Assembly (NCBI GenBank): GCA_005882775.1
Contig: VBDY01000133.1
Coordinates: 1-33,054 of the forward strand
Reading direction: 5' to 3'
From: Chloroflexota bacterium
GTDB taxonomy: Bacteria > Chloroflexota > Dormibacteria > CF-121
DNA: 33,054 nucleotides
Each line of letters begins with the position of its first letter. The stretch's first letter is position 1. Positions 1 through 31,624 of this stretch are shown here, piece by piece. The notes beneath the pieces were generated by a model. The model was not told where the DNA came from, searched no databases, and was given only the letters and a program-made list of their open reading frames with translations. The position numbers and the translations under genes were made by a program.

Positions 1-1237
1 CCATGGTCACGATCATCGCCATGGTCAGTACTGCAGAGACCATCAGCAGGCGCTGCTCGGCCCGGCCGGCCTTGCCCCAGCTGACCCCGGGCAGCCCGCG
101 CAGATACCAGACGACCGCGGCGATCGCGATCAGCGTATAGGCCATCAGCGCCAGGACCTTCCAGGGGATCATGGCGCCCAGGGGATTGATCAGGCCTCCC
201 TCCCAGAAGGGCTTGTTGAGCCCGGCCGCGACTACCTGGTCGAAGGTGGGTGCGAGGTGATAGGGAAGGGCGGCGAAGAGAGTGACCAGCGTCAACCCCA
301 CCGCCATCAGCCTGAGCAGGCCCGCACCCTTGGCCTGGTCCACCCTTAATCGCCTGGCGAAGTAGAAGGTTGCGGTGAGGAACATCAGCCCGAGCAAGAA
401 GATTTGCCAGAGGAACCACGGGCTCAGTGTCCCGAACATCATCTTGTACCAGCTCCCGTAGGTGTGGAGCTGGATTTCCTTGGCATAGGAGTAGCCGACG
501 ATCGGCTGCAGCAGGGTCATCCCGACGCCCCAGAGCAACCCGAAGCTCCCGGCCCAGTCGTAATAGGATCGATCCTCCGGGGTCTTTGCCCGCAGGTACT
601 TGAAGGCGGCATAGCCGGCCACCACGAACCCGATGTACGCGATGTTGCCCACGGTGCGGTGCACCGTCAGTGGATACGAGGTGGGGTTCAGCGCCATCCG
701 GATCGGGTTGCTCGGATCGACCGGGGTCAGCATGTAGCTGGCCACGATGTCGATCATGTAGACCTGCAGCAAAGACGCGATCGCCAGCAATCCGCCAATG
801 GCCATGTGCAGGCCTTTGAATCCGCGCAAGGGGTCCCAGGTGTAGTACCAGAGGTATGCCAGGCTGACCTGCAAAACGAATGTCCAGGCCTCGACGAACA
901 ACGGCCACCATCCAATCCGCACCATGGTCGTCCAGAAGTGGCCCCACAGGCCAACCAGCAGCACTGTGATCAGAAGGATCGCGACGGTCGAGCTGACGCT
1001 GAAGTAATAGGTCATGAACCGGCCGAGCCCGTGGGCCAGGCGGTCGTAGCTGCGGCGGCCACGCATCCACCCGAGCCATTCGACGGCGGGTCCGAGCTGG
1101 CCGGCGCCGCTGACCAGGCCGGCCAGCAGGATGTGGATCGAGAAGAGTGTGCCGATCACGATCCGAGCCACGGTCAGGTTGCCGCCCTGGGGCGCCTGCG
1201 ATGGCAGGGGGATGGCCAGGATCTGCAGGGTGATCAC
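1..1237 (-). CDS. CydA-like (cytochrome bd superfamily) membrane subunit, 3' end cut by the window
   Basis: A polytopic membrane protein of which 412 residues are visible; the C-terminus lies outside the window. It starts at a GTG that shares the bases GTGA with the cytochrome b stop, so the two are translationally coupled. Segments align by eye with CydA: SIHILLAG in helix 1 (heme ligand His19 of E. coli), WDPLRGFKGLHMAIG (His126 region), SYMLTPVDP and YPLTVHRTVGN (His186, heme b558 ligand). A Glu in PLFVEAW lies near E. coli Glu99, and a Gln replaces Glu107. I could not find a convincing Met393 ligand; the matching stretch reads IPWKVLALM. In canonical bd oxidases CydA oxidises quinol and holds all hemes. 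Here it follows Rieske and cytochrome b genes, so the electron donor may differ. Membership in the bd superfamily is fairly sure, but oxygen-reductase activity is not shown. Confidence 0.82.
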   Translation of the reverse strand, partial: MITLQILAIPLPSQAPQGGNLTVARIVIGTLFSIHILLAGLVSGAGQLGPAVEWLGWMRGRRSYDRLAHGLGRFMTYYFSVSSTVAILLITVLLVGLWGHFWTTMVRIGWWPLFVEAWTFVLQVSLAYLWYYTWDPLRGFKGLHMAIGGLLAIASLLQVYMIDIVASYMLTPVDPSNPIRMALNPTSYPLTVHRTVGNIAYIGFVVAGYAAFKYLRAKTPEDRSYYDWAGSFGLLWGVGMTLLQPIVGYSYAKEIQLHTYGSWYKMMFGTLSPWFLWQIFLLGLMFLTATFYFARRLRVDQAKGAGLLRLMAVGLTLVTLFAALPYHLAPTFDQVVAAGLNKPFWEGGLINPLGAMIPWKVLALMAYTLIAIAAVVWYLRGLPGVSWGKAGRAEQRLLMVSAVLTMAMIVTM

Positions 1238-2400
1238 AGGTTGAACAGCCTTCCCGAGCCGAGCAGGGTAAGGATCAGCATGAAGAGCACCGCGAACACG
1301 CCAGGGATCATGACCGCCGGCCGTTCGAACGGATTGCGCTCGGGGCCGCGGTCGATGAAGGGCAGGGCAAGCAGAAGGAGGACGCCCCCGGCCGGCAGCA
1401 CCAGGACCAGGGGAATCAGCTCGCGGGGGACCAGGACCAGAAGCTGGTCGAGCGGCAGGTAAAACCACTCCGGAACCGGCGTGTAGCTGGTCGTGGAGGG
1501 GTCGGCAGCGGCCTCCAGAGGAGCGCCGATCGCGACGGCCAGCGCGAACACGAGCAGGACCAGCGCGGCCGACACCACACCGTCCTTGAAGGTCTGGTGC
1601 GGATAAAAGTCCTCTGCCTCGAGCGGCGCCGCCCAGAGCTCCTCGGATGGAGCCGCCGGGTAGGGCGGCTCGATCCGTCGCTGTGGGGGCGCCGGGGGAA
1701 CGTCCACGCCCTGGCGGGTTCGGTATGCGCCGCGGTAGTTCACGTAGGAGCCGAACTCCCCGTGCTTGCGCAGGAGGGCCAGGTGGACGCCAATCAAAGG
1801 GAAGAGAATGACCGGCAGCAGCCAGATGTGGATGCCGAAGGTCCGAACCAGCGTGATCGGTCCGACCGCATCACCGCCGCGCCAGAGGGCACGAACGAAC
1901 GAGCCGATCAAAGGTGTGTACGAGGGGATGTTGGTCACGACCACGGCGGTCCAGTAAGCCGCCTGGTCCCAGGGAAGGAAGGCTCCGGTGATTGCCATTC
2001 CGAGCACCAGCACGAAGAGGATGACGCCCGTGACCCAGTTGAGCTCACGCGGACGCTTGTAGGAGCCGGAAAAGAATGTGCGCACCATGTGCAGTCCGAT
2101 GACGAACAGCAGGATGTAGGCGGACCACAGGTGAATCCCGCGCACGATGGAGCCGAACGTGTCGTGCTGCTTGACGTAGTTGAGGCTCTCCCACGCCTCT
2201 TTCACCGACGGTACGTACAGGAGCGTGAGGAAGATGCCGGTGACCAGCTGCAGGATGATCAGGATCAGGGTGGCGCTGCCCAGCGTGTAGAACCACGACC
2301 CTCGGACGGGCACCGCCTCGTAGAGGCCCTTTCGCAGCAGGTTGCGGATGGCGGCTCGCTCGTCGATCCAGTCATATGCGGAGCCGAGCCAGCGAGTCAT
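1234..2400 (-). CDS. Cytochrome b of a bc/b6f-type complex, b6 and subunit IV parts fused
   Basis: A 388-residue diheme cytochrome b that would carry quinol oxidation and transmembrane electron transfer. The ATG at 2400 shares one base with the Rieske stop codon, which excludes the longer upstream reading. The first heme-ligand pair is in GIHLWSAYILLFVIGLH, with the two His 14 apart. The second is in GIHIWLLPVILFPLIGVH, 15 apart, which is the spacing of cytochrome b6 rather than mitochondrial cytochrome b. The Qo-site motif is PEWF instead of the usual PEWY. The C-terminal third supplies the subunit IV-like helices, so this is a fused type. The lack of an adjacent cytochrome c gene and the CydA-like neighbours on both sides of the Rieske/b pair are unusual. 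Family assignment is secure; the terminal acceptor is unknown. Confidence 0.93.
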   Translation of the reverse strand: MTRWLGSAYDWIDERAAIRNLLRKGLYEAVPVRGSWFYTLGSATLILIILQLVTGIFLTLLYVPSVKEAWESLNYVKQHDTFGSIVRGIHLWSAYILLFVIGLHMVRTFFSGSYKRPRELNWVTGVILFVLVLGMAITGAFLPWDQAAYWTAVVVTNIPSYTPLIGSFVRALWRGGDAVGPITLVRTFGIHIWLLPVILFPLIGVHLALLRKHGEFGSYVNYRGAYRTRQGVDVPPAPPQRRIEPPYPAAPSEELWAAPLEAEDFYPHQTFKDGVVSAALVLLVFALAVAIGAPLEAAADPSTTSYTPVPEWFYLPLDQLLVLVPRELIPLVLVLPAGGVLLLLALPFIDRGPERNPFERPAVMIPGVFAVLFMLILTLLGSGRLFNL

Positions 2401-2888
2401 CAGATCGACTCCGTGAACTCGTTCGTCACGTAGAGGATGTTGCCGTCGAGCCGGTGGACGTACTCGGGAAGCGGCTTTGGGGGCGGCCCGCCGTCGTAGC
2501 TCCCGTCCCTCTTGTAGAGCCCGCCGTGACACGGGCAGAGAAACTTTTGCAGTGCATTTTCCCAGCGGACGGGGCACTGCATGTGTGTGCAGACGTTGGA
2601 CAGCACCTTGACGGTGTTTCCGATCCGCACGACGTAGACGGCCGCCTTCACTTCGGGAACGTCCCAGGCGTTCTGCGGAAACGTGACCTCGAACTTCACC
2701 GGGTCGGTCCCAACGCTGCTGATATCGCCCACCCTGCGCTCGGTAAACGCCTGCTTGCGGAATAGCGGCGAAATCAGAAAGCCGATGATCGGGATCCCAA
2801 GCGCCAGGGTAACGATCGCGCCGGCGACCTGCGTGCCGAGGACGGCAAACTGTCGCCGGCTCAGCCGGCGCCGCTCAGGAAGCGCCAT
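2400..2888 (-). CDS. Rieske [2Fe-2S] protein of the cytochrome bc complex
   Basis: A 162-residue Rieske iron-sulfur protein that would pass electrons from quinol at the cytochrome b Qo site to a downstream acceptor. The cluster-binding boxes are CTHMQC and CPCHGG, giving the two Cys and two His ligands plus the two disulfide Cys. The N-terminus has a twin-arginine-like SRRQF motif followed by one hydrophobic helix (about residues 18-42), consistent with a Tat-exported, membrane-anchored protein. The ATG at 2888 lies inside the end of the upstream small membrane gene (14-base overlap), and the stop overlaps the cytochrome b start. The cluster domain is short, with few residues beyond the two boxes. 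Assignment is certain; the redox partner is inferred only from position. Confidence 0.95.
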   Translation of the reverse strand: MALPERRRLSRRQFAVLGTQVAGAIVTLALGIPIIGFLISPLFRKQAFTERRVGDISSVGTDPVKFEVTFPQNAWDVPEVKAAVYVVRIGNTVKVLSNVCTHMQCPVRWENALQKFLCPCHGGLYKRDGSYDGGPPPKPLPEYVHRLDGNILYVTNEFTESI

Positions 2889-3111
2889 ACCGAAGGAAGC
2901 CGTACAGAATGCCGACCGTCCCGCCCACGAAAAAGAGCAGCACCACCACGATCGCTCCGCCGACCAGCCAGAAGGTCAGGGCCGACGGTTGGTCCGTGTG
3001 TCTGAACCACCGGACCAGTCCGGCGATCGCGACCCCCACCAGGATGCCCGCGAGCCCGAGCATGACGACGGCGATCAGTGCCAGGTAAAAAAACGTCTGT
3101 AAGTCCCCCAC
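2875..3111 (-). CDS. Small two-helix membrane protein of the respiratory operon
   Basis: A 78-residue protein starting at GTG. It has two predicted transmembrane helices (about residues 8-33 and 46-71) joined by a short polar loop containing RWFRHTDQPS. I recognise no family. It sits 22 bases downstream of the CydA-like gene and overlaps the Rieske start by 14 bases, so it is almost certainly co-translated with the complex. The size and topology would suit a small structural subunit, like CydX or the small subunits of bc or b6f complexes, but no sequence match to those is claimed. Confidence 0.72.
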   Translation of the reverse strand: MGDLQTFFYLALIAVVMLGLAGILVGVAIAGLVRWFRHTDQPSALTFWLVGGAIVVVLLFFVGGTVGILYGFLRYGAS

Positions 3112-3133
3112 GCTCAGCAGGCCCTGCCCTTGC

Positions 3134-4387
3134 TCACGGATAGAAGTTGTTGCTCGGCGCCTGGAAGACGCCGGTGCTGTCTGATTCTTTGAGCAGGCCG
3201 TAGACGGTGTAATCGGAGCGCGCCGTGGTTCGGATCACGCCCATCAGGAGGAAGAGAAGCATGGCGGTGACGCCGGTCACGGCCAGCGTCACCTGGCTGC
3301 TCCGCCGTAGGTCCTGGGTGACCGTGCGCGCCCGTGGCCGGGACACCAGCCAGTGGACCAGGCTCAGCACTACGGCCAGGGCGAGGGCGACGTAGCGGAT
3401 CCAGAAGAAGCCGGTGGGATAGGCAGCCGCCGGTGTCATGGTGATGAGCGAGGCAAGGATCACGACGGCGGTGAGGAAAAGCGCTGGCGGCGTGGGCCGG
3501 GCCTGCCAGAAGTAGAGGTTGCTGCCGACCAGGAGGATGGCGACGAAGCTGGCCTGCACCAGCCAGAGCCAGGCGAACGGCCCCTGCAGCGAGTACTGGA
3601 AGGCCCCGTAGGAGGAGTTCTTGATGCTCTCCACGAAAACGGCGCCGAGGATTATCTGTGGGACCAGGGTGAGAAAGCCGACCACCAGTGCGGTTCTGGC
3701 GGCCCAGTGGTGGTAGAGGCGGTTCGCCGGGAGCCGGCTGGCGGCGGCATAGACAGCTGCTACCGCGGCGATGAAGAAGGACGCCCAGGACAGGTTGCCA
3801 ATGAACCGGTGGCCCAGCTCAGGCCAGTAGGACGGGTTGAAGAACGCACCCGGTCCCTGGCCCGCACCGGGAGTCAGAAGGTAACTGTCGAGGGCGACGA
3901 TGATGAACAGAAAAATGTGCTCGGTGGCTGCGGTCAGGTAGCCGATGGCGATGTGCAGGCCCTTGCGGTTGACGAACCGGTCCCAGCGCAGGTTGTAGAC
4001 CAGCAAGCCAAGCAGGGTGAGAAACCAGATGCTGAAGGCGACCACCGCCGGCCAGAAGAAGACGGTTATCAGTGAGACGATGAAGCTGGGATAGAGCCCG
4101 ACCAGCACGATCACGGCAAATCCGCCCAGGGTGGCTCCCAGGCTGAAGATCTTCAGGTTGACATTCCCGAGCCCGCGGGCCAGGCGCTCGAACCGGGGGT
4201 CGCGCCGCGCCAGGCCGACCCATTCGAAGCTCGGGCCGAGCACCAGGGCTCCCATCGTGAACGAGCCGAAGATGATGTGGACTAGAAAAAATCCGCCGAC
4301 CATCCATCGGTTGCCGATGATCGGGATGTTGATGTTCGGCTGATTGATGTTGTAGGTCTGTTGCAAAAGGGCCAGCCGGCCGCTCAC
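3134..4387 (-). CDS. Second CydA-like membrane protein, lacking the conserved acidic residues
   Basis: A protein of about 417 residues with roughly nine to ten hydrophobic helices. I chose the GTG at 4387, just after the permease stop; a TTG at 4420 in the same frame would add 11 residues and overlap the permease. It is a paralogue of the protein at 1-1237. Shared landmarks are LVHIIFGS (His19), GPSFEW, WDRFVNRKGLHIAIG (His126), SYLLTP and WPELGHRFIGN (His186). In helix 3 the positions of E. coli Glu99 and Glu107 align by eye with Val and Thr (stretch WPAVVAFSIWFLTLL), and no Met393 equivalent is evident (FWIRYVALA). In bd oxidases these Glu feed protons to the active site, so this subunit may be structural or electron-transferring rather than catalytic, like CydB or archaeal CydA'. 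That role is inference. Confidence 0.82.
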   Translation of the reverse strand: MSGRLALLQQTYNINQPNINIPIIGNRWMVGGFFLVHIIFGSFTMGALVLGPSFEWVGLARRDPRFERLARGLGNVNLKIFSLGATLGGFAVIVLVGLYPSFIVSLITVFFWPAVVAFSIWFLTLLGLLVYNLRWDRFVNRKGLHIAIGYLTAATEHIFLFIIVALDSYLLTPGAGQGPGAFFNPSYWPELGHRFIGNLSWASFFIAAVAAVYAAASRLPANRLYHHWAARTALVVGFLTLVPQIILGAVFVESIKNSSYGAFQYSLQGPFAWLWLVQASFVAILLVGSNLYFWQARPTPPALFLTAVVILASLITMTPAAAYPTGFFWIRYVALALAVVLSLVHWLVSRPRARTVTQDLRRSSQVTLAVTGVTAMLLFLLMGVIRTTARSDYTVYGLLKESDSTGVFQAPSNNFYP

Positions 4388-4391
4388 CTGG

Positions 4392-5117
4392 TCAGTCGGC
4401 CTCGACCACGCGACGCCCAAACAGTCCGATCAATCCACCCGCGCCGACGAGGAAGCCGGCGCCGCCCAGGGCGGTCTCCCAGGGGAAGAGGTTGGGATGC
4501 CCTCCCAGGGCGCCCAGCAGGGACTGGTGCAGGTAGCTGAAGGGCAGCAGTCGTGAGACTGTGAGCAGCACCGGGTCGGAGAAGGGCGTGAACAGGCCGC
4601 TGAGAAAGAAGGCGGGGAGAAGAGGGACAAAGACGAACAGCATCACCTCCCCGGGTGAATCCGAGAGGATGCTGGCCACCGCTCCCAGCAGGTTGCCGAT
4701 GGCGAGGACGGCGGCCACGGTAAGGATCAGCGCCGGCCACCAGGCAAAGCCTGCGGGTGACCGGATCCCGATCAGGATCAGGGCCGGAACAATCTGCAAG
4801 AAGTCGATTGCCGCATTGGTGGCCAGGCGCTCGAACAACAGGCGTCCCGGCCGGACCGGCAGCGTTCGATATCGCAGGGCCAGGCCGGTCGAACGCTCGC
4901 GGCTGAGCACGGCTGCCGAGCCGACCGCTCCGATGACCGCGAACAGCATGGTGAGAGCGGTCGCGGCGGAAAAGAGGGGTGCGCCACCGAGGATGAGCGG
5001 CATCCCGATCAGGAGAGGAAAGCTCAGCTTGATGACCAGAGCCCGCCGCCGCTGAAGAAACTCGACGAGCTCGCGCTGCCAGATGGTCGCCGGCAGCATT
5101 CGGGAGGGTGAGCTCAT
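4392..5117 (-). CDS. ABC transporter permease (ABC-2/CcmB-like type)
   Basis: A 241-residue integral membrane protein with about six hydrophobic segments (residues 28-42, 46-72, 100-118, 125-150, 155-180 and 210-230). Motifs such as LSRERSTGLALRYRTLPVRPGRLLFERL before helix 3 are typical of ABC-2 permeases, which pump lipids, polysaccharides, drugs or heme-type cargo outward. Its ATG overlaps the stop of the ATPase gene as ATGA, making an obligate pair. The substrate cannot be read from sequence. CcmB, the heme-export permease of cytochrome c maturation, has similar size, and the position inside a heme-protein operon makes a maturation role conceivable but unproven. Confidence 0.85.
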   Translation of the reverse strand: MSSPSRMLPATIWQRELVEFLQRRRALVIKLSFPLLIGMPLILGGAPLFSAATALTMLFAVIGAVGSAAVLSRERSTGLALRYRTLPVRPGRLLFERLATNAAIDFLQIVPALILIGIRSPAGFAWWPALILTVAAVLAIGNLLGAVASILSDSPGEVMLFVFVPLLPAFFLSGLFTPFSDPVLLTVSRLLPFSYLHQSLLGALGGHPNLFPWETALGGAGFLVGAGGLIGLFGRRVVEAD

Positions 5118-6034
5118 TCGCCAGCCGGAAGCGCCACGCCGGTCAGTTTGAGAAACAGGTCCCCCAGGTTGGGACGCCTAACCCGCATCGTGCTGACCAG
5201 GTCGGCCGTTCCGTTCAAGACCGCCAGCACCTCGGCCGGATTCGTCCCTCGCGCCAGTACCACGTGGAGGGTATCGCCCTCCACGTTGGCCGCCTCCACG
5301 GAGGGCAGCGCCCGCAGGTTTTCGAGTGGTACCGGGGAGTGCATCTGCAGCTCGACCTCCTTCGAGCCTGCCAGCTCGCTGAGCAGGGTCGGCACATGGC
5401 CCTCGCGGATGATTCGACCCTGGTGTAAAAACAGGACGCGGTCACAGATTCGCTCAGCCAGGTGCACATCGTTCGTAGCCAGGATGACGGCGGCTCCGGT
5501 CAGGCTGACCAGTTGGATGCGCTCGATCAGGTCGAGCTCAGCCCGGTAGTCGAGAGCGAGGGTGGGCTCGTCCAGGAGGAGAATCTCCGGCCGATGCACG
5601 AGGGCCTCGACCAGGCTGAGCTTCCGCTTCATTCCGAGCGAGTACGCACCTGCACGCTGGTCGCGCGCATCCCACAGGCCCGCCCAGCGAAAGAGCTCCT
5701 CGAGGCGTGGGGCCGCCACCTCGCCTGAGAGACCGAGTTGGCCCGCGAAGAACCAGGCGTTCTGATAGCCGGTCATCTGCTCGAAGTGCGCCGGTTGGTC
5801 AAGGACGATTCCCAGGCGGCGGCGCACGGATGGATCGCGGCGATCATTTCTACCGAACCAGGAGACGGTGCCGGCTTGGGGGGCGTCGACGGTCGCCAGT
5901 ACCCGAAGCAAGGTCGACTTTCCTGAGCCGTTTGGGCCCATCAGACCGATGACCTCGCCCGCCTGCAGGTCCAGGCTGACCTCGAACACGCCCTTTCCGC
6001 CGCCGTATCTGCGGCTGACGCCGCTGGCGCTCAG
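5114..6034 (-). CDS. ABC transporter ATP-binding protein
   Basis: A cytoplasmic ATPase that powers the adjoining permease. Walker A is GPNGSGKST, the signature motif is the variant YSLGMKRK, Walker B is ILLLDEP, and the switch His is probably replaced in ILATND. A C-terminal extension of about 70 residues follows the nucleotide-binding domain, as in CcmA/NatA-like exporters. Start choice: the first ATG/GTG/TTG is GTG at 5989, but that drops the N-terminal strand and the aromatic A-loop (RRYGGG) normal in this family. The frame is open upstream, and a CTG at 6034, eight bases after the preceding stop and behind an AGG, restores them. I therefore give the longer form; 5989 is the conservative alternative. 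It shares ATGA with the permease. Confidence 0.85.
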   Translation of the reverse strand: MSASGVSRRYGGGKGVFEVSLDLQAGEVIGLMGPNGSGKSTLLRVLATVDAPQAGTVSWFGRNDRRDPSVRRRLGIVLDQPAHFEQMTGYQNAWFFAGQLGLSGEVAAPRLEELFRWAGLWDARDQRAGAYSLGMKRKLSLVEALVHRPEILLLDEPTLALDYRAELDLIERIQLVSLTGAAVILATNDVHLAERICDRVLFLHQGRIIREGHVPTLLSELAGSKEVELQMHSPVPLENLRALPSVEAANVEGDTLHVVLARGTNPAEVLAVLNGTADLVSTMRVRRPNLGDLFLKLTGVALPAGE

Positions 6035-6041
6035 GACCTGG

Positions 6042-8555
6042 TTATGCGTGGAAGCCGTACTTACCCTCGTGGAAGTCGCCGGTCTCGATCCATTTCTGGA
6101 TGACGCGATCCATCACCGAGGGGGTGACCTGACCTTCGCCCAGCTCGCGCGCGTTTCCCTCGATGGCATGGACGACCTGGCCGCGCACAAAACCCGGCAT
6201 GTTGGTCAGCCTCGCCTGCGCCTCGGGTGCCCAGGGCATGCTCGGTCCTTTGTCCTGGAGCGCTTCCGACACTTCGCCCCACATTTCGAACTTGACGTCC
6301 ATGACCTCGGGCGTGATCACCGGGCCGAGCCCCTTCTTTGCGGCGGTCCACTCCACGCGCCAGCGGCTCAGCTCGCGGCAGTAGGAGGGCAGGCCTTCCA
6401 GCCTGGCCTCCGCTTCCTCGGTCCAGGTGAAGTAGTGCTCGAAGGTCCGGGGACTCAATGGATGGCCGTACCCGATCTTCAAACCGAGCCGTTCCAGGAA
6501 TGCTGCATTGATGGCTTCACTGGTCCGAGCGGCGCGCGATTCCGCGGCGTGGTGAGCCAGCTCACGCGCCCGGGCCGGCTCGAATTTCTCGGTCGCCTGC
6601 ACCTCGACCTCGTTCAGCCGCCGGACCCCATCCTCCGTCCAGCCTGGGGACGGTGTCGGGTGGCCTCCATTCCCCGGTTGGCCGCTGGAGCCGTGCGCCC
6701 GCATTGCCCGCTCGACCTCGTCCGGTGAGTGGGCCTTGAGTGCCTGGTCCATCATCAGCCGGGCGTCGACCAGGCCGCCCTCGGCGACGTCCAGAGTCAC
6801 CCGGTCGGCCATGATCTTTCGGGCGAACTGCTCGACCTTGACCCGCGCCAGCATCCGCATGAACCCCGCCGGGACCCTTTCCATCCGGGCAACGGCTTCG
6901 TCGGTCCAGCTGAGCGCGGCGTCATCCCCGGTCGGCCCGGTGCTATCCCCGACGACCTCGGCCACCGGGGCGTACGCGTCCTCGAGGTTCGCCTCGGCAA
7001 AGTCGCGCGTGATGGTCGGCAGTCGCTGCACTCGGGCGATCTTTTCGATCCTCGCCTTGACCCTCCGCCGCTCGTAGCCTTTGGGAACGCGGTTCAATAC
7101 TTCCTTGGATTCAGCGGTCCACTTGACCTTGAATCCATCGAAGGCTTCTTCCTCGTGTATGTCCCCCTCATGGGCGGCCGCGGCGAGCATCGAGGCCTTG
7201 TCTACCGCCTGGAACTGTGTCCCGCCGCAGACGGGGCACTCCTGAGGACTTCCCGTCCTCGCGGCTCGGCCGCACCGGCGGCAGATCCAGGTTTCCCCGG
7301 CGTCGGAGGCTGCCATGGTGGCGGGTGCCCTGACCGGCGTGACACCCATGGCCCGGGCGGCGTGTTCAGGCATCACCTCGCCAACCGCAAGGTCGATGAT
7401 CGACGAGCTGATGATCGAGTGGCCCCGCTCCATGGCGTAACGGCTGATCGCGGTGCGGGTGATCGATCGGAAGGCTGCGGGCACCTTTTCCATCCGTGCC
7501 TCCGCTTCTTCCGTCCAGACCACGCTGGCCTCCGCCTGGAGGTCGATCGGCGGAACATACGCACGGCTCGAGAGAAGCACGCTGACGGGTGCCAGCCGCA
7601 GCAGGTTATCGCTGTTACTCCCCATGTCCATCTCGGCGGACGAGTGCACGCCGATCCGTCCGACGATAAGGAGCCAGGGCGGATCCTGACGAACATACTG
7701 GAGGACCTTCTTGAAGGCCTTGCCGTCCAGGAGGGTGGTCTTCAGCGTCACCCCCTCCTCCTTCGCAATCGATTCCGCCACCCGGAGGTGCGATTCGTAG
7801 ATCTTGGCCAGGCCGGTGTCGATGATCTCCTCGTGGAGCTGCTCCTGCTCCTTGAATCGGAAGACCTTGGATGCCTCGGCCGAGAGGACGTCGACGATGC
7901 CGTTGAACATCGCGTAGTGCAGATAGGGGTCATACACCGACACCGCTTCGACCTTCTTAGCGAGCGCCTTGCCGAGCGTGAGGGCGGTTCGGAGACCGGC
8001 GAACGATTGCGGGCTACCGTCGATACCACAGACAATCCGGTCGGAGGCGTCGTCCCGAAATGGATGGGGGTCGCGGACCACCAGCGTATCGACTCGAATC
8101 CGGCGGGTCACCCGGTCCGTCACGCTGCCGACCTGGCTGTCCTTGACGGCGCCCATACCGAGTGCGCCCATGACCACCAGGTCATAGTCCGATCCGGCAA
8201 TGTCCTCCACCAGGCACTCCCAGTTCTTGCCATCGAAGGTCTTGTATTCGAACGGCAGGCCGGCCTTCTCGCACGCGGCTTTCATGACGTCCAGGTACGA
8301 GTCGGAAATCAGCTGGAGGCCCCGCGTGATCAGCGAATCGTGGATCTTGCGCTGGCGCTCGAGTTCCTGCTCGTGCTGGTACTCCTCGGGCAGGGTGTAC
8401 TCCATCTGCTTGAAGCGCACGTCGTGCATTCGCGCTGCATAGACGTGACTCCCGGTGAGGCGGGCCTGAAGGGTTTGAGCCAGCCGGATGCCGACGTCGA
8501 TGGCCGCGTTGGAATGGTCGGAGTTATCAACTGGCACATATATCCTCTGATACAC
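6042..8555 (-). CDS. Tandem universal-stress protein fused to rubredoxin-like zinc ribbon and six PCP_red repeats
   Basis: A soluble protein of 837 residues. The GTG at 8555 has AGGAG seven bases upstream; a TTG at 8558 is the alternative. Numbering from the TTG: universal stress domain 1 spans about 3-163 and domain 2 about 172-332, and both keep the ATP-binding pattern G-x2-G-x9-G-S (131-145 and 300-314). A ribbon with Cys 426, 429, 441 and 444 follows the first of six WTEEAEARMEKVP-like units. The units start near residues 348, 480, 551, 640, 712 and 776 and resemble PCP_red, the small C-terminal domain of the BchB/ChlB protochlorophyllide reductase subunit. Repeat 6 (VTPSVMDRVIQKW end) is the closest; repeat 4 is the most diverged. 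No bacteriochlorophyll gene is nearby. As first gene of the respiratory operon it may sense or service the electron-transfer complex; function is unknown. Confidence 0.88.
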   Translation of the reverse strand: MYQRIYVPVDNSDHSNAAIDVGIRLAQTLQARLTGSHVYAARMHDVRFKQMEYTLPEEYQHEQELERQRKIHDSLITRGLQLISDSYLDVMKAACEKAGLPFEYKTFDGKNWECLVEDIAGSDYDLVVMGALGMGAVKDSQVGSVTDRVTRRIRVDTLVVRDPHPFRDDASDRIVCGIDGSPQSFAGLRTALTLGKALAKKVEAVSVYDPYLHYAMFNGIVDVLSAEASKVFRFKEQEQLHEEIIDTGLAKIYESHLRVAESIAKEEGVTLKTTLLDGKAFKKVLQYVRQDPPWLLIVGRIGVHSSAEMDMGSNSDNLLRLAPVSVLLSSRAYVPPIDLQAEASVVWTEEAEARMEKVPAAFRSITRTAISRYAMERGHSIISSSIIDLAVGEVMPEHAARAMGVTPVRAPATMAASDAGETWICRRCGRAARTGSPQECPVCGGTQFQAVDKASMLAAAAHEGDIHEEEAFDGFKVKWTAESKEVLNRVPKGYERRRVKARIEKIARVQRLPTITRDFAEANLEDAYAPVAEVVGDSTGPTGDDAALSWTDEAVARMERVPAGFMRMLARVKVEQFARKIMADRVTLDVAEGGLVDARLMMDQALKAHSPDEVERAMRAHGSSGQPGNGGHPTPSPGWTEDGVRRLNEVEVQATEKFEPARARELAHHAAESRAARTSEAINAAFLERLGLKIGYGHPLSPRTFEHYFTWTEEAEARLEGLPSYCRELSRWRVEWTAAKKGLGPVITPEVMDVKFEMWGEVSEALQDKGPSMPWAPEAQARLTNMPGFVRGQVVHAIEGNARELGEGQVTPSVMDRVIQKWIETGDFHEGKYGFHA

Positions 8556-22851: not shown

Positions 22852-23763
22852 TCAGGCCGCGACACGGACCTCACCATCCTGTCCCAGGGATAGCCGGTTT
22901 TCCCAGCGGCCCTGACGGGCAAGTCCCAGAGCGGCCAGGTGGAGTGGCCAGGGAAAGTCCGGTGTCCAACCGGGACGCGGGGTCGGCCGGCGGACCGCGA
23001 AGCCAAATCGCTGGTATGCCTGTTCCTCAGCGCCCGGCAATACCAGGAACCGCCCGGCGAGGCTCAGCGGCGTGCTCGGGCCGATCACAAGCCCGGGCCC
23101 TGCGCTTTTCACGAATTTGACCAGGGTGCTGACGCCGGCGGCGATCTCTTCGAGCTGCTGGTCGAGGCTGCCTTCCTGGGCATCAAGCAGGAAGGTGCGG
23201 AAGAACCGGGGTCGGCCCCCGGCCACCAGGACCAGGGTGGCTTCACCCAATCCCCACTCGACTAGCAGGCCATCGACCACCTCGGCACCCCGCGCGAGTG
23301 CCAGCGGTTTGAGGTCGATGTGTTCAACCTGGATCTCGAGCCGGCCCAGTTCGCTGACATAGGCGTCGATCAGCTCACGCCGTGCGGCAACCACGTAGAC
23401 GGCAGTGCCCGCAGCAATCCGGCGGGCGTGCCAGGCATAGTAGACGGTTGCCGGGTCGATGGGTACCAGCCGCTTGGCTTCGTAGGTCACGGCGCTGGCC
23501 AGCTCGGCGGGCGGGATCTTCGGAAGGACAAAGTCGCGTACGGCTATGCCGACGTCGGGGATCGCCAGTCGAAGGAGGCGCCCCTCGATGCCGGCCTGGC
23601 CCAGGGCCTCAACCAGGCAGGGCAGGAACGGACTGCGAGGCAAGCCGTCCTCGATGGCGTTGGCCGGAAGCGGCACTGCGGCCTGACGCGCCAGCAGTTG
23701 CCCTTCGGTCTGCGTTACCTTCAGCTCGCGCAGCCCGACCTCGAGCGTGATCAGGTCGGTCAC
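22852..23763 (-). CDS. pilM: Type IV pilus assembly protein PilM (actin-like ATPase)
   Basis: A 303-residue cytoplasmic protein of the PilM/FtsA fold that links the pilus motor to the membrane subcomplex. The first strand with phosphate loop is DLITLEVGLRELKV, and the second nucleotide motif is GLLVEWGLGEATLVLV. The middle has PPAELASAVTYEAKRLVPID, the typical PilM subdomain hinge. The start is GTG at 23763, overlapping the preceding stop as GTGA; the frame is open further upstream but covers the minor pilin genes. It is somewhat shorter than usual PilM (about 350), mainly near the first lobe. Family assignment rests on pattern and operon position. Confidence 0.86.
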   Translation of the reverse strand: MTDLITLEVGLRELKVTQTEGQLLARQAAVPLPANAIEDGLPRSPFLPCLVEALGQAGIEGRLLRLAIPDVGIAVRDFVLPKIPPAELASAVTYEAKRLVPIDPATVYYAWHARRIAAGTAVYVVAARRELIDAYVSELGRLEIQVEHIDLKPLALARGAEVVDGLLVEWGLGEATLVLVAGGRPRFFRTFLLDAQEGSLDQQLEEIAAGVSTLVKFVKSAGPGLVIGPSTPLSLAGRFLVLPGAEEQAYQRFGFAVRRPTPRPGWTPDFPWPLHLAALGLARQGRWENRLSLGQDGEVRVAA

Positions 23764-24206
23764 TGGTATTGCTCCCAGTTGATCAGCCACGAGCCCTTCT
23801 TGCCGGCGTTGCTCGAATGGATCTGGAGGGAGAGCGACCGGGTGCTGATGGACGCGGGCAACGTTACCTGGACGTCGTAGGTGGGTTTGCTCGGCTTGCA
23901 CCCAGCCGAGGCCGTCACGTCGATCGTGACCGTGATGTTGCCCGTCGAGTAGGGAAGGGTGAACGTCTTGCCCAGGTCGGGGGTGCACCCCAGCGGTTTG
24001 AACTTGTCGTCCTCCAGCTCCACCGCGAACGCGAGGCCGGCGTCGAGAGCATAGGTCGCCCGAGTGTCTTCCCGGACGCTGCTCAGAGCCAGGAATCCGG
24101 AGCTCGAGAGCTTCAGGGCGGCCCAGACCAGCAGCAGGAACGCCGCAACGAAGATCAGCACGAGCAGGAGTGCCTGGCCACGTTGGCCCCGGAGGCGCGC
24201 GTTCAC
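23760..24206 (-). CDS. PilX-like pilus assembly protein
   Basis: About 148 residues. It starts at GTG 24206 (overlapping the preceding stop as GTGA; GTG 24212 would add two residues). The N-terminus RGQRGQALLLVLIFVAAFLLL is the PilX/GspK-type hydrophobic start, lacking the FTLxE prepilin motif and Glu5. The rest is a beta-rich domain with two Cys (GCTPDL and AGCKPS). Such proteins sit at the pilus tip and prime assembly. It lies within the run pilV-like, pilW-like, pilX-like, which is the normal order for minor pilins. Confidence 0.75.
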   Translation of the reverse strand: MNARLRGQRGQALLLVLIFVAAFLLLVWAALKLSSSGFLALSSVREDTRATYALDAGLAFAVELEDDKFKPLGCTPDLGKTFTLPYSTGNITVTIDVTASAGCKPSKPTYDVQVTLPASISTRSLSLQIHSSNAGKKGSWLINWEQYQ

Positions 24207-24691
24207 AGGCACCCGCCTGGTCGATTGCCGACCGTGAGGGTCTGCGCAACGGCCCCGGTGGCCGACGGTTGCAGCGTGACCGTCGCGTAGCAGCTGGCGG
24301 GGGCGGCGGCCACGGTCACGCTGGTCATTCCTCGCGCCGCCACAAATGCCTGCCCGCCCACCGTCCGAATGAGGTTCTGGTTGGCGTCAATCGTGTAGGC
24401 GACGCCGATCGCTACGGAGCCGTAGGTCAAGGAGAGCGAGCCGGCTCCTGAGGTGATGCTGCCGGTCGGGATCGCAGCCGCCGTCTGCAGGTCGCGGGTC
24501 AGCGTCAGTGACGCATCGCTGATCGCGGTGTCGGCGGCGATCGCGCGCGCCTCCCGGCTGATCGCCGTGTACCCGACGAGAAACGTCCCGCCCATGGCGA
24601 TCGTCACCACGGTCACGATTGCCAGGCTCATCAGCATCTCGATCAGGGTGAAGCCCGCTTGCCGGCGCCGGCGGTACAAGCTCGCGGTCAC
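24203..24691 (-). CDS. Minor prepilin, PilW-like
   Basis: A 162-residue prepilin. GTG 24691 overlaps the previous stop (GTGA); the longer reading upstream is inside the preceding gene and has no leader-like features. The basic leader ends in RRRRQAG, followed by FTLIEMLMSLAIVTVVTIAMGG (cleavage after Gly, Glu at +5). The C-terminal half is Thr/Ser/Ala-rich beta with two Cys. It probably forms part of the pilus tip complex with its neighbours. Confidence 0.85.
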   Translation of the reverse strand: MTASLYRRRRQAGFTLIEMLMSLAIVTVVTIAMGGTFLVGYTAISREARAIAADTAISDASLTLTRDLQTAAAIPTGSITSGAGSLSLTYGSVAIGVAYTIDANQNLIRTVGGQAFVAARGMTSVTVAAAPASCYATVTLQPSATGAVAQTLTVGNRPGGCL

Positions 24692-25071
24692 GGCTGCACC
24701 TTCATGAAGTCCAGCGTCTGCTGGCTGCCGTTGGGTCCACTGACCGTAAGCAGGACTTCCTGCAGGCCGAGGTCCGGAAGGACCGCCGTGCAGCTCGCCA
24801 GCACCGGGTCGCAATACACGACCTGGTACGAGAAGGTGTAGCCGGCGGCCGCGATGTTGCCGTAGCCGTTGGCGCCGGCGCTGACCACGTAGGTCTGGCT
24901 CTTGACGAACTCGGCGTCCGACCGGGTCAGCCGGTCGAGGCTGGTCTGCTGCTGGTGGCGGGCCACGGCCAGCGTCGTGGCCGAGAATGCGGAAAGGATG
25001 GTCACGACGATGACCGCCAGCAGAGCCAGAGCAACCATGGTCTCGACCAGGGTGAATCCTCGCCGTCTCAT
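24688..25071 (-). CDS. Minor prepilin, PilV-like
   Basis: A 127-residue prepilin with a very short leader, MRRRG, then FTLVETMVALALLAVIVVTIL (Glu at +5). A coiled helix region (RHQQQTSLDRLTRSDAEFVKSQ) leads into a small beta domain with two Cys. ATG overlaps the pilC stop as ATGA. The type (V versus other) is given by position and the short length. Confidence 0.85.
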   Translation of the reverse strand: MRRRGFTLVETMVALALLAVIVVTILSAFSATTLAVARHQQQTSLDRLTRSDAEFVKSQTYVVSAGANGYGNIAAAGYTFSYQVVYCDPVLASCTAVLPDLGLQEVLLTVSGPNGSQQTLDFMKVQP

Positions 25072-26279
25072 TTGAGCGCCCCCACCAGTCCGTACATGGC
25101 CGAGATCAACGAGATCGCGATGAAGCCGACCACCAGCCCGACCCCGACGGTCATGACGGGTTCGATCAGCGAGGTCATCTGCCGGATGCGGTAGTCGAGC
25201 TCCTCCTCGTAGAAGTCAGCGGCCTGCTCGAGGTATGCGTCGAGCGTCCCGGTTTCCTCACCAACCCGGACCATCTGGGTCAGCATCGGCGGGAACAGAC
25301 CGGTTCGGGAAAGGGGACCGGCAAACCCCTCGCCGCCTGTCATCTGCTCCTTGACAGTGGCCAGTCCCTGCCGGAAAACGCTGTTGCCGGTGCCGGCGAT
25401 CACGGCATCGAATGTCTGGCCCAACGGGACCCCGGCCTTGAGCACCATGGCGAGCGTGCGGGAGAACCGGTTGAGGATGGTGGCCAGCACGATCGGTCCG
25501 AAGATCGGGGCTCTGAGCGAGGCGCGGTCCTTGAAGTTGCGGCCGCGCTCCGTCCGCATCCCGAAGAAAATCCCAGCGCTTACAACCAGAACGGTGCCGC
25601 CGATGACCGCAATGAACCGGCGGGCGCCGTCGACTATGCCGATCAGGATTCGGGTGGTCAGGGGCAGCTCAACCTTGAACTCCGCGAAGATGCGGACAAA
25701 GGCCGGCAGAGCGAAGAAGACCAGCACCAGCACCACCCCGGTGGCAACCACCAGGATCACGGTGGGGTAGATCATGGCGGTGCGCACCCGGCGCAGGGTA
25801 TTCAAGTCGCGGCGCAGGTACACGGAGAGTTGCTTGAGGGTTGCTTCCAGGTTCCCGGTGATTTCCGCCACCCGGACCAGGTCGATGTATAACGCGGGAA
25901 ACACCTGGGGATGCCGGGCGAGCGCGTCGGATAGTTTCTGGCCTCTCTCGAGATCGTCGAGAATGGCCAGGATCACGCGTTTGAATAGTGGCGAACCGGT
26001 TTCCTCCGCGATCACCGCCAGGGCGCGGCTCATCGGGATGCCGGCGCCGACAAAGGTCGCCAGCTGCCGGGTGAAGAGGATCAGGTCCGTTTTCGAGATC
26101 CTGTAGAGCGAGGGAAAGTAATCGGCCATCGTCTTCTTTTGGGGCGCCGGACCGAGCCGGACGATCTTGAGTCCCTCAATCCACAGACTCTGCTCGGCGG
26201 CTGATGTTCCGGCAGCCTCGACCACACCATCACGGCGCCGCCCCTCGGCCGTATAAGCCCGGTAGGCGTAGCTAGGCAT
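25068..26279 (-). CDS. pilC: Type IV pilus inner-membrane platform protein PilC (GspF family)
   Basis: A 403-residue platform protein on which PilB and PilT act. It has the typical two repeated GspF domains: the first with FTRQLATFVGAGIPMSRAL, the second with FSRTLAMVLKAGVPLGQTFD, each followed by helices and a transmembrane stretch (about 170-190, 220-240 and 370-395). The C-terminus has the usual VGEETGTLDAYLEQAADFYEEE. ATG at 26279 has GAGGG five bases upstream and overlaps the end of pilB; the TTG at 26282 is therefore not needed. Confidence 0.95.
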   Translation of the reverse strand: MPSYAYRAYTAEGRRRDGVVEAAGTSAAEQSLWIEGLKIVRLGPAPQKKTMADYFPSLYRISKTDLILFTRQLATFVGAGIPMSRALAVIAEETGSPLFKRVILAILDDLERGQKLSDALARHPQVFPALYIDLVRVAEITGNLEATLKQLSVYLRRDLNTLRRVRTAMIYPTVILVVATGVVLVLVFFALPAFVRIFAEFKVELPLTTRILIGIVDGARRFIAVIGGTVLVVSAGIFFGMRTERGRNFKDRASLRAPIFGPIVLATILNRFSRTLAMVLKAGVPLGQTFDAVIAGTGNSVFRQGLATVKEQMTGGEGFAGPLSRTGLFPPMLTQMVRVGEETGTLDAYLEQAADFYEEELDYRIRQMTSLIEPVMTVGVGLVVGFIAISLISAMYGLVGALK

Positions 26280-28008
26280 CAATTCCCTCGCTCACGTGAA
26301 TCGACCGCATGACCTCGGCGATGGTGGTCAGCCCCTGGTCGACCTTGGCCAGCCCCGCGTCTTTGAGGGTGGTCATGCCCTCTTTCACGGCCTGCTGCCG
26401 CAGCGCGTCGGGGGACGCGTCCCGCACCAGGAGTCTCTTGATCGTGTCGCTCATCTTGAGGACCTCGAAAACCCCGATCCGGTCGCGAAAGCCGGTGTGC
26501 GCGCAGTACGAGCATCCGGTTCCGCGACGAAATCGCGTGGTCATCCCGCCCAGCGCCTTGTAGTACTCGAGTTCTTCAAGTGCCGGCTCGTATTCGACCG
26601 TGCAGCGTGGACAGATCCTGCGTACGAGGCGCTGGGCTTCTACGCCGATCACCGAGGACACCACCATGAAGGGCTCGATCCCCATCTCAAAGAAGCGGTA
26701 CACGGCACCCACCGCATCAGTCGCGTGGAGCGACGACAGGACCAGGTGACCGGTGAGGGCGGATTGCACGGAGATCTCTGCGGTCTCCTTATCCCGGATC
26801 TCACCGACCAGGATCGCGTCCGGGTCCTGCCGGAGAATGGAGCGCAGGCCATTCGCGAACGTGATCCCGGCCAGCCGGTTGATCTGGATCTGGTTGATGT
26901 TCTCGAAGGTGTACTCGACCGGATCCTCGATCGTCATCACGTTCTTCTCCATGCGGTTGAGCTCGTTGAGCCCTGCGTAGAGCGTGGTCGTCTTCCCGCT
27001 GCCTGTCGGCCCTGTCACAAGGATCATTCCGTAGGGGGAGCGGATCAGCTCCATGAAGTTCAGGTGCACCGGTGGCGAGAACCCGAGGGCATCAAGCCGG
27101 AGGATGGAACGCGACCGCTCCAGAAGCCGCAGCACAGCCTTCTCTCCCCAGATGGTCTCGATGGTTCCTACCCGGATGTCCATTGGTCGTGTCTCGACTG
27201 TGGTCTGTATCTGACCGTCCTGGCTGTGATGCTTGTCGACGATGTCAAGGTTGGCAAGCAGCTTGATCCGAGAGATGATCGGCGCCGCCAGGGTGGCCGG
27301 CAGGCTGGTGACATCGTGGAGCACGCCGTCGATCCGAAACCGGATCCGCAACCGGTCCTGCTGTGGTTCGACGTGGATATCAGAGGCTCGTTCCTCGGCA
27401 CCCTGGGCGATTATCAGGTCCACTATCTGAACCACGGGCGCACCCTGCGAAACGTCGGCCAGGCGACGGGCGCCAAGCGGGATGGACGGCTGGAACGTCT
27501 CCTCGAACGATCGCACGTGCCGGCTGACCCCTCCGAGGAGCTTGTATCCCTGGGCGATGGCGGCCTGGATCTCCGAGCGCACACCAAGCACCGGCTTGAT
27601 TCGCTTCCGGGTGAGCACCTTCAGCTCGGCCAGCAGGGTCAGGTCCCCCGGGTCTACGGTCGCCACTTCGAGCTCGTCTTTGGATAGACGAATGGGAAGG
27701 ATGTTGTGCTCGCGCGCATAAGGTTCCGGGATCAGGGCAAGCGCATCTTTCTCGATCCGGGTTCGGTTGAAGTCGGCAAGCGGCACCTTGAAATGCACGC
27801 TCAGCATGGCGGCCAGGGCCTTCTCATCGACTAGCCCCTCGGCCAGTAACAACTGCCCCAGCGGAAGGCGGCGTCGCGTTTGCTGCTCCAGGGCGTGCTC
27901 GAGTTGCTGGGGTGTGAGCAAGCCGTTCTCGATCAGCAGCTCGCCCAGCCGGCGCTCCTGACGCAGCGGAACGGAGCGGCTCTCTTCCCGAGCTTCCATT
28001 GCGCTCAC
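26272..28008 (-). CDS. pilB: Type IV pilus extension ATPase PilB (GspE family)
   Basis: A 578-residue motor ATPase that drives pilin polymerisation. The N-terminal GspE/MshEN domain (residues 15-150, RRLGELLIENGLLTPQQLE and later DPGDLTLLAELKVLT) resembles the MshEN module that binds c-di-GMP in some relatives, which would fit the GGDEF and HD-GYP genes nearby. The core has Walker A GPTGSGKTTT, the Asp box DPVEYTFENINQ, Walker B AILVGEIRD and the His box LSSLHATDA. A zinc tetracysteine is formed by CPRC and CSYC. GTG 28008 overlaps the preceding stop as GTGA. Full length and intact. Confidence 0.96.
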   Translation of the reverse strand: MSAMEAREESRSVPLRQERRLGELLIENGLLTPQQLEHALEQQTRRRLPLGQLLLAEGLVDEKALAAMLSVHFKVPLADFNRTRIEKDALALIPEPYAREHNILPIRLSKDELEVATVDPGDLTLLAELKVLTRKRIKPVLGVRSEIQAAIAQGYKLLGGVSRHVRSFEETFQPSIPLGARRLADVSQGAPVVQIVDLIIAQGAEERASDIHVEPQQDRLRIRFRIDGVLHDVTSLPATLAAPIISRIKLLANLDIVDKHHSQDGQIQTTVETRPMDIRVGTIETIWGEKAVLRLLERSRSILRLDALGFSPPVHLNFMELIRSPYGMILVTGPTGSGKTTTLYAGLNELNRMEKNVMTIEDPVEYTFENINQIQINRLAGITFANGLRSILRQDPDAILVGEIRDKETAEISVQSALTGHLVLSSLHATDAVGAVYRFFEMGIEPFMVVSSVIGVEAQRLVRRICPRCTVEYEPALEELEYYKALGGMTTRFRRGTGCSYCAHTGFRDRIGVFEVLKMSDTIKRLLVRDASPDALRQQAVKEGMTTLKDAGLAKVDQGLTTIAEVMRSIHVSEGIDA

Positions 28009-28193
28009 CCGCCGTTCCCGCTCGCCGTCAGGCGCTGCTTGATCTCCTTGAGCTCGCGGTCCGTGAACCGCAGGTGCCGGCCGGGCGTTCGAAATGCCGG
28101 CTGGATGTCGCCCCGATTGACCGCTCGGATCAGGGTGGACTTGCTGATACCCAGCCGGCGGGCTGCCTCGGCCGTCGAGAGAGCGGGCTTCAT
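28005..28193 (-). CDS. Small excisionase/BldC-like DNA-binding protein
   Basis: A 62-residue winged helix-turn-helix protein, STAEAARRLGISKSTLIRAV followed by GRHLRFTDRELKEI, typical of the MerR-derived BldC/excisionase group. It is inserted between pilT and pilB and co-translated with pilB (GTGA overlap), so a local regulator of pilus genes is likely. BldC proteins in actinobacteria bind DNA as head-to-tail arrays. A related domain begins the c-di-GMP cyclase at 18525-20942. A possible site is the 8-mer ACGTGTCA just upstream of its own start, which recurs inverted upstream of pilA. Confidence 0.85.
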   Translation of the reverse strand: MKPALSTAEAARRLGISKSTLIRAVNRGDIQPAFRTPGRHLRFTDRELKEIKQRLTASGNGG

Positions 28194-28260
28194 GATCGCC
28201 TCGAATGGAGCAAACGTGTCAAAGGACGCAATCCTGCAAGGTCATCGTGCGGAGCCGGGA

Positions 28261-29313
28261 TCAGGCGGCCAGGCGCCTGAGCTCGTCCGGGTACTGCGCC
28301 CGGGCGGCAGCCACGGCGTGGTCGACCACGCCAGCGCGGATCAGCTCGCTGAGGCTTCGCTCCATGGTCAGCATGCCGTCCTTGCCACTGGTCTCCAGCA
28401 CGTTGCGCAGCTGCCGGGTCTTACCTTCCTTGATCAGGTTCTGGACGGCCATGCTGTCGAGCAGTACCTCGAACGCTGCCACCCGGCCGCGACCGTCACG
28501 GCGCGGCAGGAGCTGCTGGTAGATGACTGCGCTCAAAGTGTTCGAGAGCTGGATGCGTACCTGCTGCTGCTGCTCAGCGGGAAAAACGTCGACCATCCGG
28601 TCGACGGCCTGGGCTGTGTCGTTGGTGTGGAGTGTGGCCAGGACCAGGTGGCCGGTCTCGGCTACGGTGATGACCGTCTGGATCGTCTCCAGGTCGCGCA
28701 TCTCGCCGACCAGCAGGACGTCGGGCGTCTGCCGCAGACACCCGCGAAGGGCCTGGGCAAAGGATGGCACGTCGGCGCCCACCTCCCGCTGCTCGACGAT
28801 TCCCAGCTGGTGACGGTAGACATATTCGATTGGGTCCTCGATCGTGATTACGTGGCAGGGTCTTGCGGCCAGGATCTGGTTGACGATCGCGGCCAGTGTC
28901 GAGGACTTCCCCGACCCGGTCGGCCCGGTGACCAGGATCAGGCCCTGGGTGCGGGTGGCCAGGGACCGGATCACGGGCGGGAGCCCGAGCTCGTCGAACG
29001 TCGGGATCCGGTAGGGGATCAGCCTGAGCACCAGGCCCACCGAGCCGCGCTGCCGAAAGGCGCTGATTCGGAATCGGGCACGGCCCTTCCAGTTGAAGGA
29101 AAAATCGAGGTCGCTGCGCTGGCCGAAGACCTCCCAGCGATCATCGGGCAGGACCTCCTGGGCCAGCTTTTCGGTGTGCTCAGGGCGCAACGGCTCGGCG
29201 GCAATCGGAACCAGGGTTCCGTCCTTGCGCATGGTGGGCGGGGCGCCGGCGGTCAGAATCAGGTCCGAGGCGCCCTGCTGCAGCAGGATCTCCAGGTACG
29301 CTTCAATGAGCAT
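28261..29313 (-). CDS. pilT: Type IV pilus retraction ATPase PilT
   Basis: A 350-residue motor ATPase that depolymerises pili. The N-terminus GASDLILTAGAPPTMRKDG is the PilT hallmark (variant of SDLHLxxG, with Ile replacing His). Walker A GPTGSGKSST, Asp box EDPIEYVY, Walker B VLLVGEMRD and His box LATLHTNDTAQAVDR are intact. The C-terminal AFEVLLDSMAVQNLI is present; the AIRNLIREG motif of classical PilT appears as AVQNLIKEG. It is first in the minus-strand pilus operon; the gap of 67 bases to the HTH gene may hold an internal promoter. The start is only two bases from the divergent gene. Confidence 0.95.
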   Translation of the reverse strand: MLIEAYLEILLQQGASDLILTAGAPPTMRKDGTLVPIAAEPLRPEHTEKLAQEVLPDDRWEVFGQRSDLDFSFNWKGRARFRISAFRQRGSVGLVLRLIPYRIPTFDELGLPPVIRSLATRTQGLILVTGPTGSGKSSTLAAIVNQILAARPCHVITIEDPIEYVYRHQLGIVEQREVGADVPSFAQALRGCLRQTPDVLLVGEMRDLETIQTVITVAETGHLVLATLHTNDTAQAVDRMVDVFPAEQQQQVRIQLSNTLSAVIYQQLLPRRDGRGRVAAFEVLLDSMAVQNLIKEGKTRQLRNVLETSGKDGMLTMERSLSELIRAGVVDHAVAAARAQYPDELRRLAA

Positions 29314-30673: not shown

Positions 30674-31624
30674 CTAGGCGCGGCAGGCCAGGGTTTGTGC
30701 GGCTACCGCGTAGCTCGGGCTTGTGAAGACCAGCTGCTCGGTACCATTGGTCGTCGGTGTCAGGCTCGTGGTGAAGGTGTATGAGGTTCTTCCAGCTTTC
30801 ACGATGATCGAGCCGGAAACCGTCCCGCCGTCGTTGACCAGGGCCCCGTTGCTATCGAAATGCCGCCACTGGTAGGTCACCGTGCCGGCCACGCCATTCG
30901 TGGTGAGGTTTCCCTTCGCGCTGACGGTGCCATTCTTGCACTTGTCGGAAGGGTTGCCCGAGAAGGTCAGGGTCTCTGACGCGTTCGTGATCTTCAGGGG
31001 CGTGGGGGTTGGCGTAGGCGTGGGGGTAGGTGTCGGAGTTGGGGTCGGTGTCGGGGTCGGAGTAGGCGTGGGGGTAGGTGTCGGAGTTGGAGTGGGTGTG
31101 GGCGTCGGAGTTGGAGTGGGTGTGGGCGTCGGAGTTGGAGTGGGTGTGGGCGTTGGCGTTGGTGTTGGCGACGGGGATCCGGAGGGTGTGGCTGATGGGG
31201 TCGGCGCCCCCGAGGGGGTCGGCGTCGACGAAGGCGTTGGACTCGCGCCACCCGATGGGCTCACCGATCCGCTCGGCGTCGGGCCCGACGGTGCCGGCGA
31301 GTTCTGGGAGCCGCTCGCCGACGGCCTCAAAGCGACGGGCGGGCGGCTGGCGTTTGGCCTGACCGCGAAAAACCGCGGGGGAAGGTTGAAGGTGGGGACC
31401 AGGAGCCAGAACGGCGCCCTCGGGTCGTCCGCAAAATAGAGGCTGGACGCGGGGTCCGATGCATTTCCGTTGGCGTCGATCCGGAAGGGACCGATCTCCC
31501 AGTCCGCGGGGATGGCCCGAACTGCGATCACGATCAGGAGAAGGGCAAAGAAAAACAGCAGAAAGCCAAAGCGGCGGCGCCGCTTCTCTTCCGTTTCCGG
31601 AGCAGGCGATACTGCCGATTCCAT
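30674..31624 (-). CDS. Membrane-anchored Pro-Thr repeat surface protein
   Basis: A 316-residue protein. A short cytoplasmic tail with a basic KRRRR stop, one transmembrane helix (residues 20-42), a small domain (43-95) and a Ser/Pro/Thr-rich stretch come first. Then follow 28 uninterrupted Pro-Thr pairs and a C-terminal domain of about 105 residues with two Cys and an immunoglobulin-like beta pattern ([20 protein letters not shown]). The PT run is a stiff stalk, probably glycosylated, holding the end domain away from the cell. There is no sorting motif for the sortase. ATG at 31624 is used. A long open frame on the opposite strand is just a repeat artefact. Confidence 0.82.
31001..31168 (-). 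repeat. Hexamer-based minisatellite coding for Pro-Thr repeats
   Basis: A 168-base run of 28 six-base Pro-Thr codon pairs. Within it a 24-base unit (plus strand GTCGGAGTTGGAGTGG then GTGTGGGC) is repeated three times without change at 31080-31103, 31104-31127 and 31128-31151. A separate 29-base stretch at 31014-31042 recurs at 31062-31090. Higher-order identity shows recent duplication, so length probably varies between strains. Confidence 0.92.

Follow-up and report, generated by a model that had tools for sequence, protein, structure and literature searches.

Organization of the Usp-PCP_red locus

The window (the whole 33,054-nucleotide stretch of Chloroflexota DNA analysed here) carries a gene for a protein in which two Usp domains are combined with PCP_red repeats and a rubredoxin-like ribbon (Table 1). 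The preliminary description had placed this combination at 6042-8555 without naming a strand, and both the domain content, as judged by Pfam and the cysteine pattern, and the coordinates proved correct; the gene lies on the minus strand, with a GTG start at 8555 and a stop codon that ends at 6042. In the Pfam scan of the 837 residues, Usp (PF00582) was matched in two stretches (E 3.1e-34, 119 bits against a cut-off of 24) and PCP_red (PF08369) in five significant ones (E 3.2e-44, 149.2 bits against a cut-off of 32.5), three of the repeats exceeding the PCP_red cut-off unaided when scored singly. Most of the repeats are thus recognizable as PCP_red, and of the six copies originally proposed five stand, whereas the sixth, repeat 4, is to judge by its score a decayed copy of which only a remnant is left; the same site reaches 9.6 bits (domain E 4.8e-4) in one relative (G040), as against 1.7 bits here. 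Conservation among the repeats is as uneven as had been noted, separate scoring of repeats 1 to 6 giving 62.9, 44.6, 44.5, 1.7, 58.6 and 51.8 bits. No NCBIfam model spans the whole protein.

Table 1. Features of the Usp-PCP_red gene and of the genes downstream of it
Feature	Position	Strand	Basis or remark
Usp-Usp-PCP1-ribbon-PCP2-PCP3-(PCP4)-PCP5-PCP6 protein	6042..8555	-	837 aa; Pfam, AlphaFold model
Usp domain 1	8073..8552	-	residues 2-161; Pfam Usp; Foldseek tandem Usp 3cis, 3ab8
Usp 1 conserved insertion H37-x-YAA-x2-HD-x-RF-x-QME, then H72	8328..8447	-	residues 37-76
Usp 1 ATP motif GALG-x9-GS	residues 130-144	-	motif conserved in relatives
Usp domain 2	7566..8042	-	about residues 172-330; second Pfam Usp stretch; Foldseek
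Usp 2 conserved insertion YDPxxH ... QExLHxEIID	7785..7934	-	residues 208-257
Usp 2 ATP motif GRIG-x9-GS	residues 299-313	-	motif conserved in relatives
PCP_red repeat 1	7389..7517	-	40.6 bits; sole repeat retained in minimal relatives
Rubredoxin-like ribbon C425-x2-C428-x11-C440-x2-C443	7227..7283	-	cysteine pattern
PCP_red repeat 2	6993..7121	-	31.5 bits
PCP_red repeat 3	6786..6908	-	41.1 bits
C-terminal extension (repeats 4-6)	6045..6743	-	separate 2xPCP gene in class relatives
PCP_red repeat 4, degenerate	6486..6641	-	residues ~639-690; 1.7 bits
PCP_red repeat 5	6297..6425	-	31.4 bits
PCP_red repeat 6	6105..6233	-	49.5 bits
ABC transporter ATPase	5114..5989	-	DrrA-like, below cut-off
ABC-2 permease	4392..5117	-	profile search
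bd-like CydA no. 1	3134..4387	-	PF01654 E 5.5e-12; Foldseek bd oxidase CydA
Small hydrophobic protein	2876..3112	-	no Pfam match
Rieske protein	2400..2888	-	profile search
Cytochrome b (b6/petD type)	1234..2400	-	profile search
bd-like CydA no. 2	2..1237	-	PF01654 E 7.5e-17; extends beyond window

The AlphaFold model of the protein is fair (mean pLDDT 70.4, pTM 0.46), and Foldseek finds the best matches of its Usp part in the tandem Usp structures Rv2623 and ATP-bound TTHA0350. The residues of the GxxG-x9-G(S/T) motif are retained in both Usp domains in 54-56 of 56 sequences; because these motifs are near-universal among relatives and the fold is that of a tandem Usp with ATP, it is plausible that both domains bind ATP. 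Like the known tandem Usps (Rv2623, TTHA0350, UspE), the window protein has two Usp domains per chain with the ATP-type motif. Unlike them, it adds long conserved insertions that contain His and Met, the PCP_red repeats, the ribbon and a link to a bd-like oxidase, and its match to solved Usps at the sequence level is weak (best 6e-4).

All genes from the ABC transporter ATPase to the second CydA-like gene lie downstream of the Usp-PCP_red gene on the same strand. The respiratory neighbours previously reported are indeed present (CydA-like, Rieske, cytochrome b and again CydA-like, with the ABC pair in between), and the statement that the gene begins the operon holds approximately, an aldose-1-epimerase gene of the same orientation preceding it by about 100 bp. 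The two CydA-like proteins score 61.4 and 45.4 bits against PF01654 (cut-off 26.2), the first has a bd-oxidase CydA fold in Foldseek (E 8.7e-7 to CydA of 5doq), and His37 and His193 are conserved in the alignment of their family. Taken together, the CydA-like pair, the Rieske protein and the cytochrome b look like components of one combined respiratory complex. The order CydA-(small)-Rieske-cytb-CydA, found at 2-4387 (minus strand), recurs in several Chloroflexota families, and a small ORF recurs in relatives at the position of the small hydrophobic protein.

A conserved core with lineage additions

Relatives of the Usp-PCP_red protein were found in genomes titled Chloroflexi, Rokubacteria/Methylomirabilota, Rhodothermales/Bacteroidota, Acidobacteria and Planctomycetota; a search of plasmids returned none. 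The commonest relative is a protein of about 635 residues with the order Usp-Usp-PCP-ribbon-PCP-PCP, and other Chloroflexota families have a form of about 400 residues, Usp-Usp-PCP, encoded adjoining or near CydA; one such homologue, at L167 5733-6923, has 396 residues. Every one of the 49 aligned relatives has the Usp domain. Within the insertion of the first Usp domain, H37, H44 and H72 are present in 56/56 sequences and M51 in 55/56; within that of the second, Y208, D209, P210 and H213 are present in 56/56 and H241 in 54/56. The minimal form retains the ATP motifs together with H37, H44, H72, H213 and H304. Comparison of these sequences indicates that only Usp-Usp-PCP_red is obligatory; further PCP_red copies and the ribbon were added in particular lineages.

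The C-terminal extension of the window protein is a fused 2xPCP gene, its counterparts in class relatives being separate genes (L142 10563-11312, L146 1506-2273, L147 6787-7515). In another genome, G102 (L181 3-2296), three successive ORFs correspond to the end of a Usp-PCP protein, a 2xPCP protein and a radical-SAM-PCP protein, an order that suggests how the fused extension may have arisen. A seeming Usp-radical-SAM fusion in genome G317 was discarded, as it consists of two overlapping ORFs.

Co-occurrence with the bd-like CydA

In the class of the window's source, 24 of 41 relatives have the Usp-PCP_red protein and 25 the CydA-like one, the sole mismatch being an 82% complete genome. A sample of 301 Chloroflexota, which overlaps the class sample, has the former in 23 genomes and the bd-like CydA in 24, all 23 being common to both; best scores separate the bd-like CydA (above 236 bits) cleanly from the canonical CydA (at most 102 bits). 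The only CydA-only genome among the 301 (G264, 84% complete) has the split 2xPCP partner gene. Among 248 Bacteroidota, an identical set of six genomes carries both, and the bd-like CydA was found in 20/20 carriers reached through their loci, mostly in other phyla. Fisher values of 1.6e-10 and 1.4e-33 overstate independence, since the genomes are related.

The two genes are linked in many families, and their presence is patchy within each of three families (f1, f2 and f3). In a fourth, f4, they reside on separate contigs, so that co-occurrence persists without linkage. General aerobic respiration was considered as the cause and rejected: a generic cytochrome b is present in all 41 genomes of the class sample, and it is therefore the bd-like complex in particular that the protein tracks. 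Counting against a partnership is the situation in Rokubacteria, where the Usp-PCP_red gene adjoins haem-copper oxidase genes and the bd-like CydA is found elsewhere. All in all, the bd-like complex very probably has the Usp-PCP_red protein as its dedicated partner, and the earlier suggestion that this protein serves the adjoining complex has gained strong support from linkage and from near-perfect co-occurrence in two separately sampled phyla.

Nitrite oxidisers are among the organisms that have oxidases of the bd-like (CydAA'-type) branch (PMC10839748, PMC8115632). Tandem CydA-like subunits, as in the window, are a feature of the OR-N type CydAA' (PMC10839748), a likeness by description only; unlike that type, the CydA-like pair is here interleaved with the Rieske and cytochrome b genes. 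The subunit composition of these oxidases is so far unconfirmed. As the partner is present in essentially all sampled genomes with a bd-like CydA and was found in none without it, it offers a first handle on their composition and assembly.

PCP_red and the possible function of the partner

Until now, PCP_red has been known chiefly from protochlorophyllide reductase, where it forms a tail. The sequence of the window protein matches the C-terminal PCP_red domain of DPOR subunit B (BchB/ChlB; 2KRU, 2XDQ); that subunit, however, has a single copy, whereas the window protein has several and no nitrogenase-like domain. Pfam gave it no match to the nitrogenase component 1 domain PF00148, and BchB models score 41-94 bits against cut-offs of 490-912. 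Throughout the source genome, the five repeats of the Usp-PCP_red protein are the only PCP_red matches at E <= 0.01, so there is no PCP_red-bearing bacteriochlorophyll gene in it.

In Rokubacteria, Rhodothermales and some Chloroflexota, the Usp-PCP_red gene adjoins a gene for a radical-SAM/SPASM enzyme that ends in PCP_red. Their best models are those of AhbD, the haem b synthase, and of NirJ2, at 303-345 bits where the cut-offs stand at 500; the window protein differs from these enzymes by having no radical-SAM domain. Genes for a Mrp/ApbC-like ATPase and for a zinc-ribbon-PCP_red protein are often found with them, and at two loci (L049 12219-15713 and L067 8188-13316) all three adjoin Usp-PCP_red. 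Other proteins that bear PCP_red are NIR_SIR/ferredoxin proteins and a nitrogenase-type BchB/BchZ-like subunit; nitrogenase-type subunits are Fe-S enzymes. Three loci (L177 6691-7668, L178 5959-6897, L179 6022-7017) encode an N-terminal PCP_red with a siroheme-reductase-like NIR_SIR domain, and some proteins of this set also carry ferredoxin domains. The enzymes that bear PCP_red act, or by family would be expected to act, on tetrapyrroles, and most are also Fe-S enzymes. Haem biosynthesis through a local AhbD/NirJ2 was rejected for the window's genome, which has no AhbD/NirJ2-like enzyme; the step held in common must therefore be other than the synthesis of haem.

The company that PCP_red keeps, together with the invariant ATP motifs and histidines, leads us to favour tentatively, with slightly less than even confidence, a reading in which the Usp-PCP_red protein is an ATP-responsive, haem-handling maturation factor for the bd-like complex. 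It would be a soluble, cytoplasmic protein in physical contact with that complex, which in the source genome would be the one encoded by the CydA-like pair with Rieske and cytochrome b. Its PCP_red modules, the putative site of haem handling, may engage haem or haem-loaded apo-subunits, and ATP bound by the tandem Usp domains would gate haem loading or release.

The chief rival is a regulatory subunit, whose Usp domains would sense ATP/ADP or AMP, and thereby the energy state of the cell, and whose PCP_red modules would dock on the complex and tune its activity or stability. The tandem Usp fold with its conserved ATP motifs, the presence of ATP-bound TTHA0350 among the closest solved relatives and the co-occurrence with the bd-like complex are all consistent with it, and Usp proteins of Nitrospira marina, putatively of the same family, flank clusters induced at low O2 (PMC8115632). 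However, such a subunit leaves unexplained both a docking module common to tetrapyrrole enzymes and the adjoining radical-SAM, Mrp and zinc-ribbon PCP_red genes, and we consider it somewhat unlikely. Distinctly less probable is a hub of Fe-S or metal maturation, in which PCP_red would dock [4Fe-4S] enzymes and the cluster of Mrp/ApbC-like ATPase, ferredoxin and zinc-ribbon-PCP would provide the oxidase or the Rieske protein with Fe-S clusters or metal. It could account for the ATPase (up to 257 bits with the MrpORP model, below its cut-off) and ferredoxin in the cluster and for the Fe-S nature of those catalytic enzymes in which PCP_red was seen, but in the window's class the neighbourhood lacks genes for Mrp, ferredoxin and zinc-ribbon proteins, and the carriers at L167, L168 and L170 have a bd-like CydA with no Rieske gene nearby.

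An electron carrier or redox sensor working through the ribbon seems improbable. All four ribbon cysteines are kept in 49/49 aligned relatives, and the rubredoxin-like profile PF21349 (RUBY_RBDX, rubrerythrin type) matches 26 of these at E <= 0.001 (best 1.5e-9); in the window protein it gives 16.3 bits, below its cut-off of 26.5. Yet 6 of 56 sequences have no ribbon, among them minimal Usp-Usp-PCP_red forms that accompany CydA, for which reason we rejected the ribbon as the core function, and a single C4 ribbon could equally be a structural zinc site. The ATP-gated redox chaperone or sensor first envisaged for this protein accordingly keeps its ATP-binding part, plausible from motifs and fold, whereas its redox part is not supported. 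A shared ecological or gene-transfer package with no functional contact, which frequent linkage would permit, is very improbable given that co-occurrence holds on different contigs in f4 and in the 20/20 carriers, mostly of other phyla.

To return to the haem-handling factor, a wider version of it would make the family an obligatory ATP-driven haem-insertion factor for the whole bd-like branch and PCP_red a general tetrapyrrole-carrier module of haem, chlorophyll and siroheme enzymes, a generalization we regard as rather unlikely. The component parts of the protein all belong to known families; for its architecture and its bd-like link we found no prior description, in an unrelated role or otherwise, in a search of freely accessible journal papers. 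The partner also offers PCP_red a concrete, testable candidate function beyond the protochlorophyllide reductase tail.

Elsewhere in the window, also on the minus strand, translations read by eye indicate a type IV pilus or type II secretion-like run at 22852-29313 (PilM-, pseudopilin-, PilC-, PilB- and PilT-like), and a protein that carries a very long Thr-Pro repeat and is predicted to be membrane-anchored is encoded at 30674-31624.
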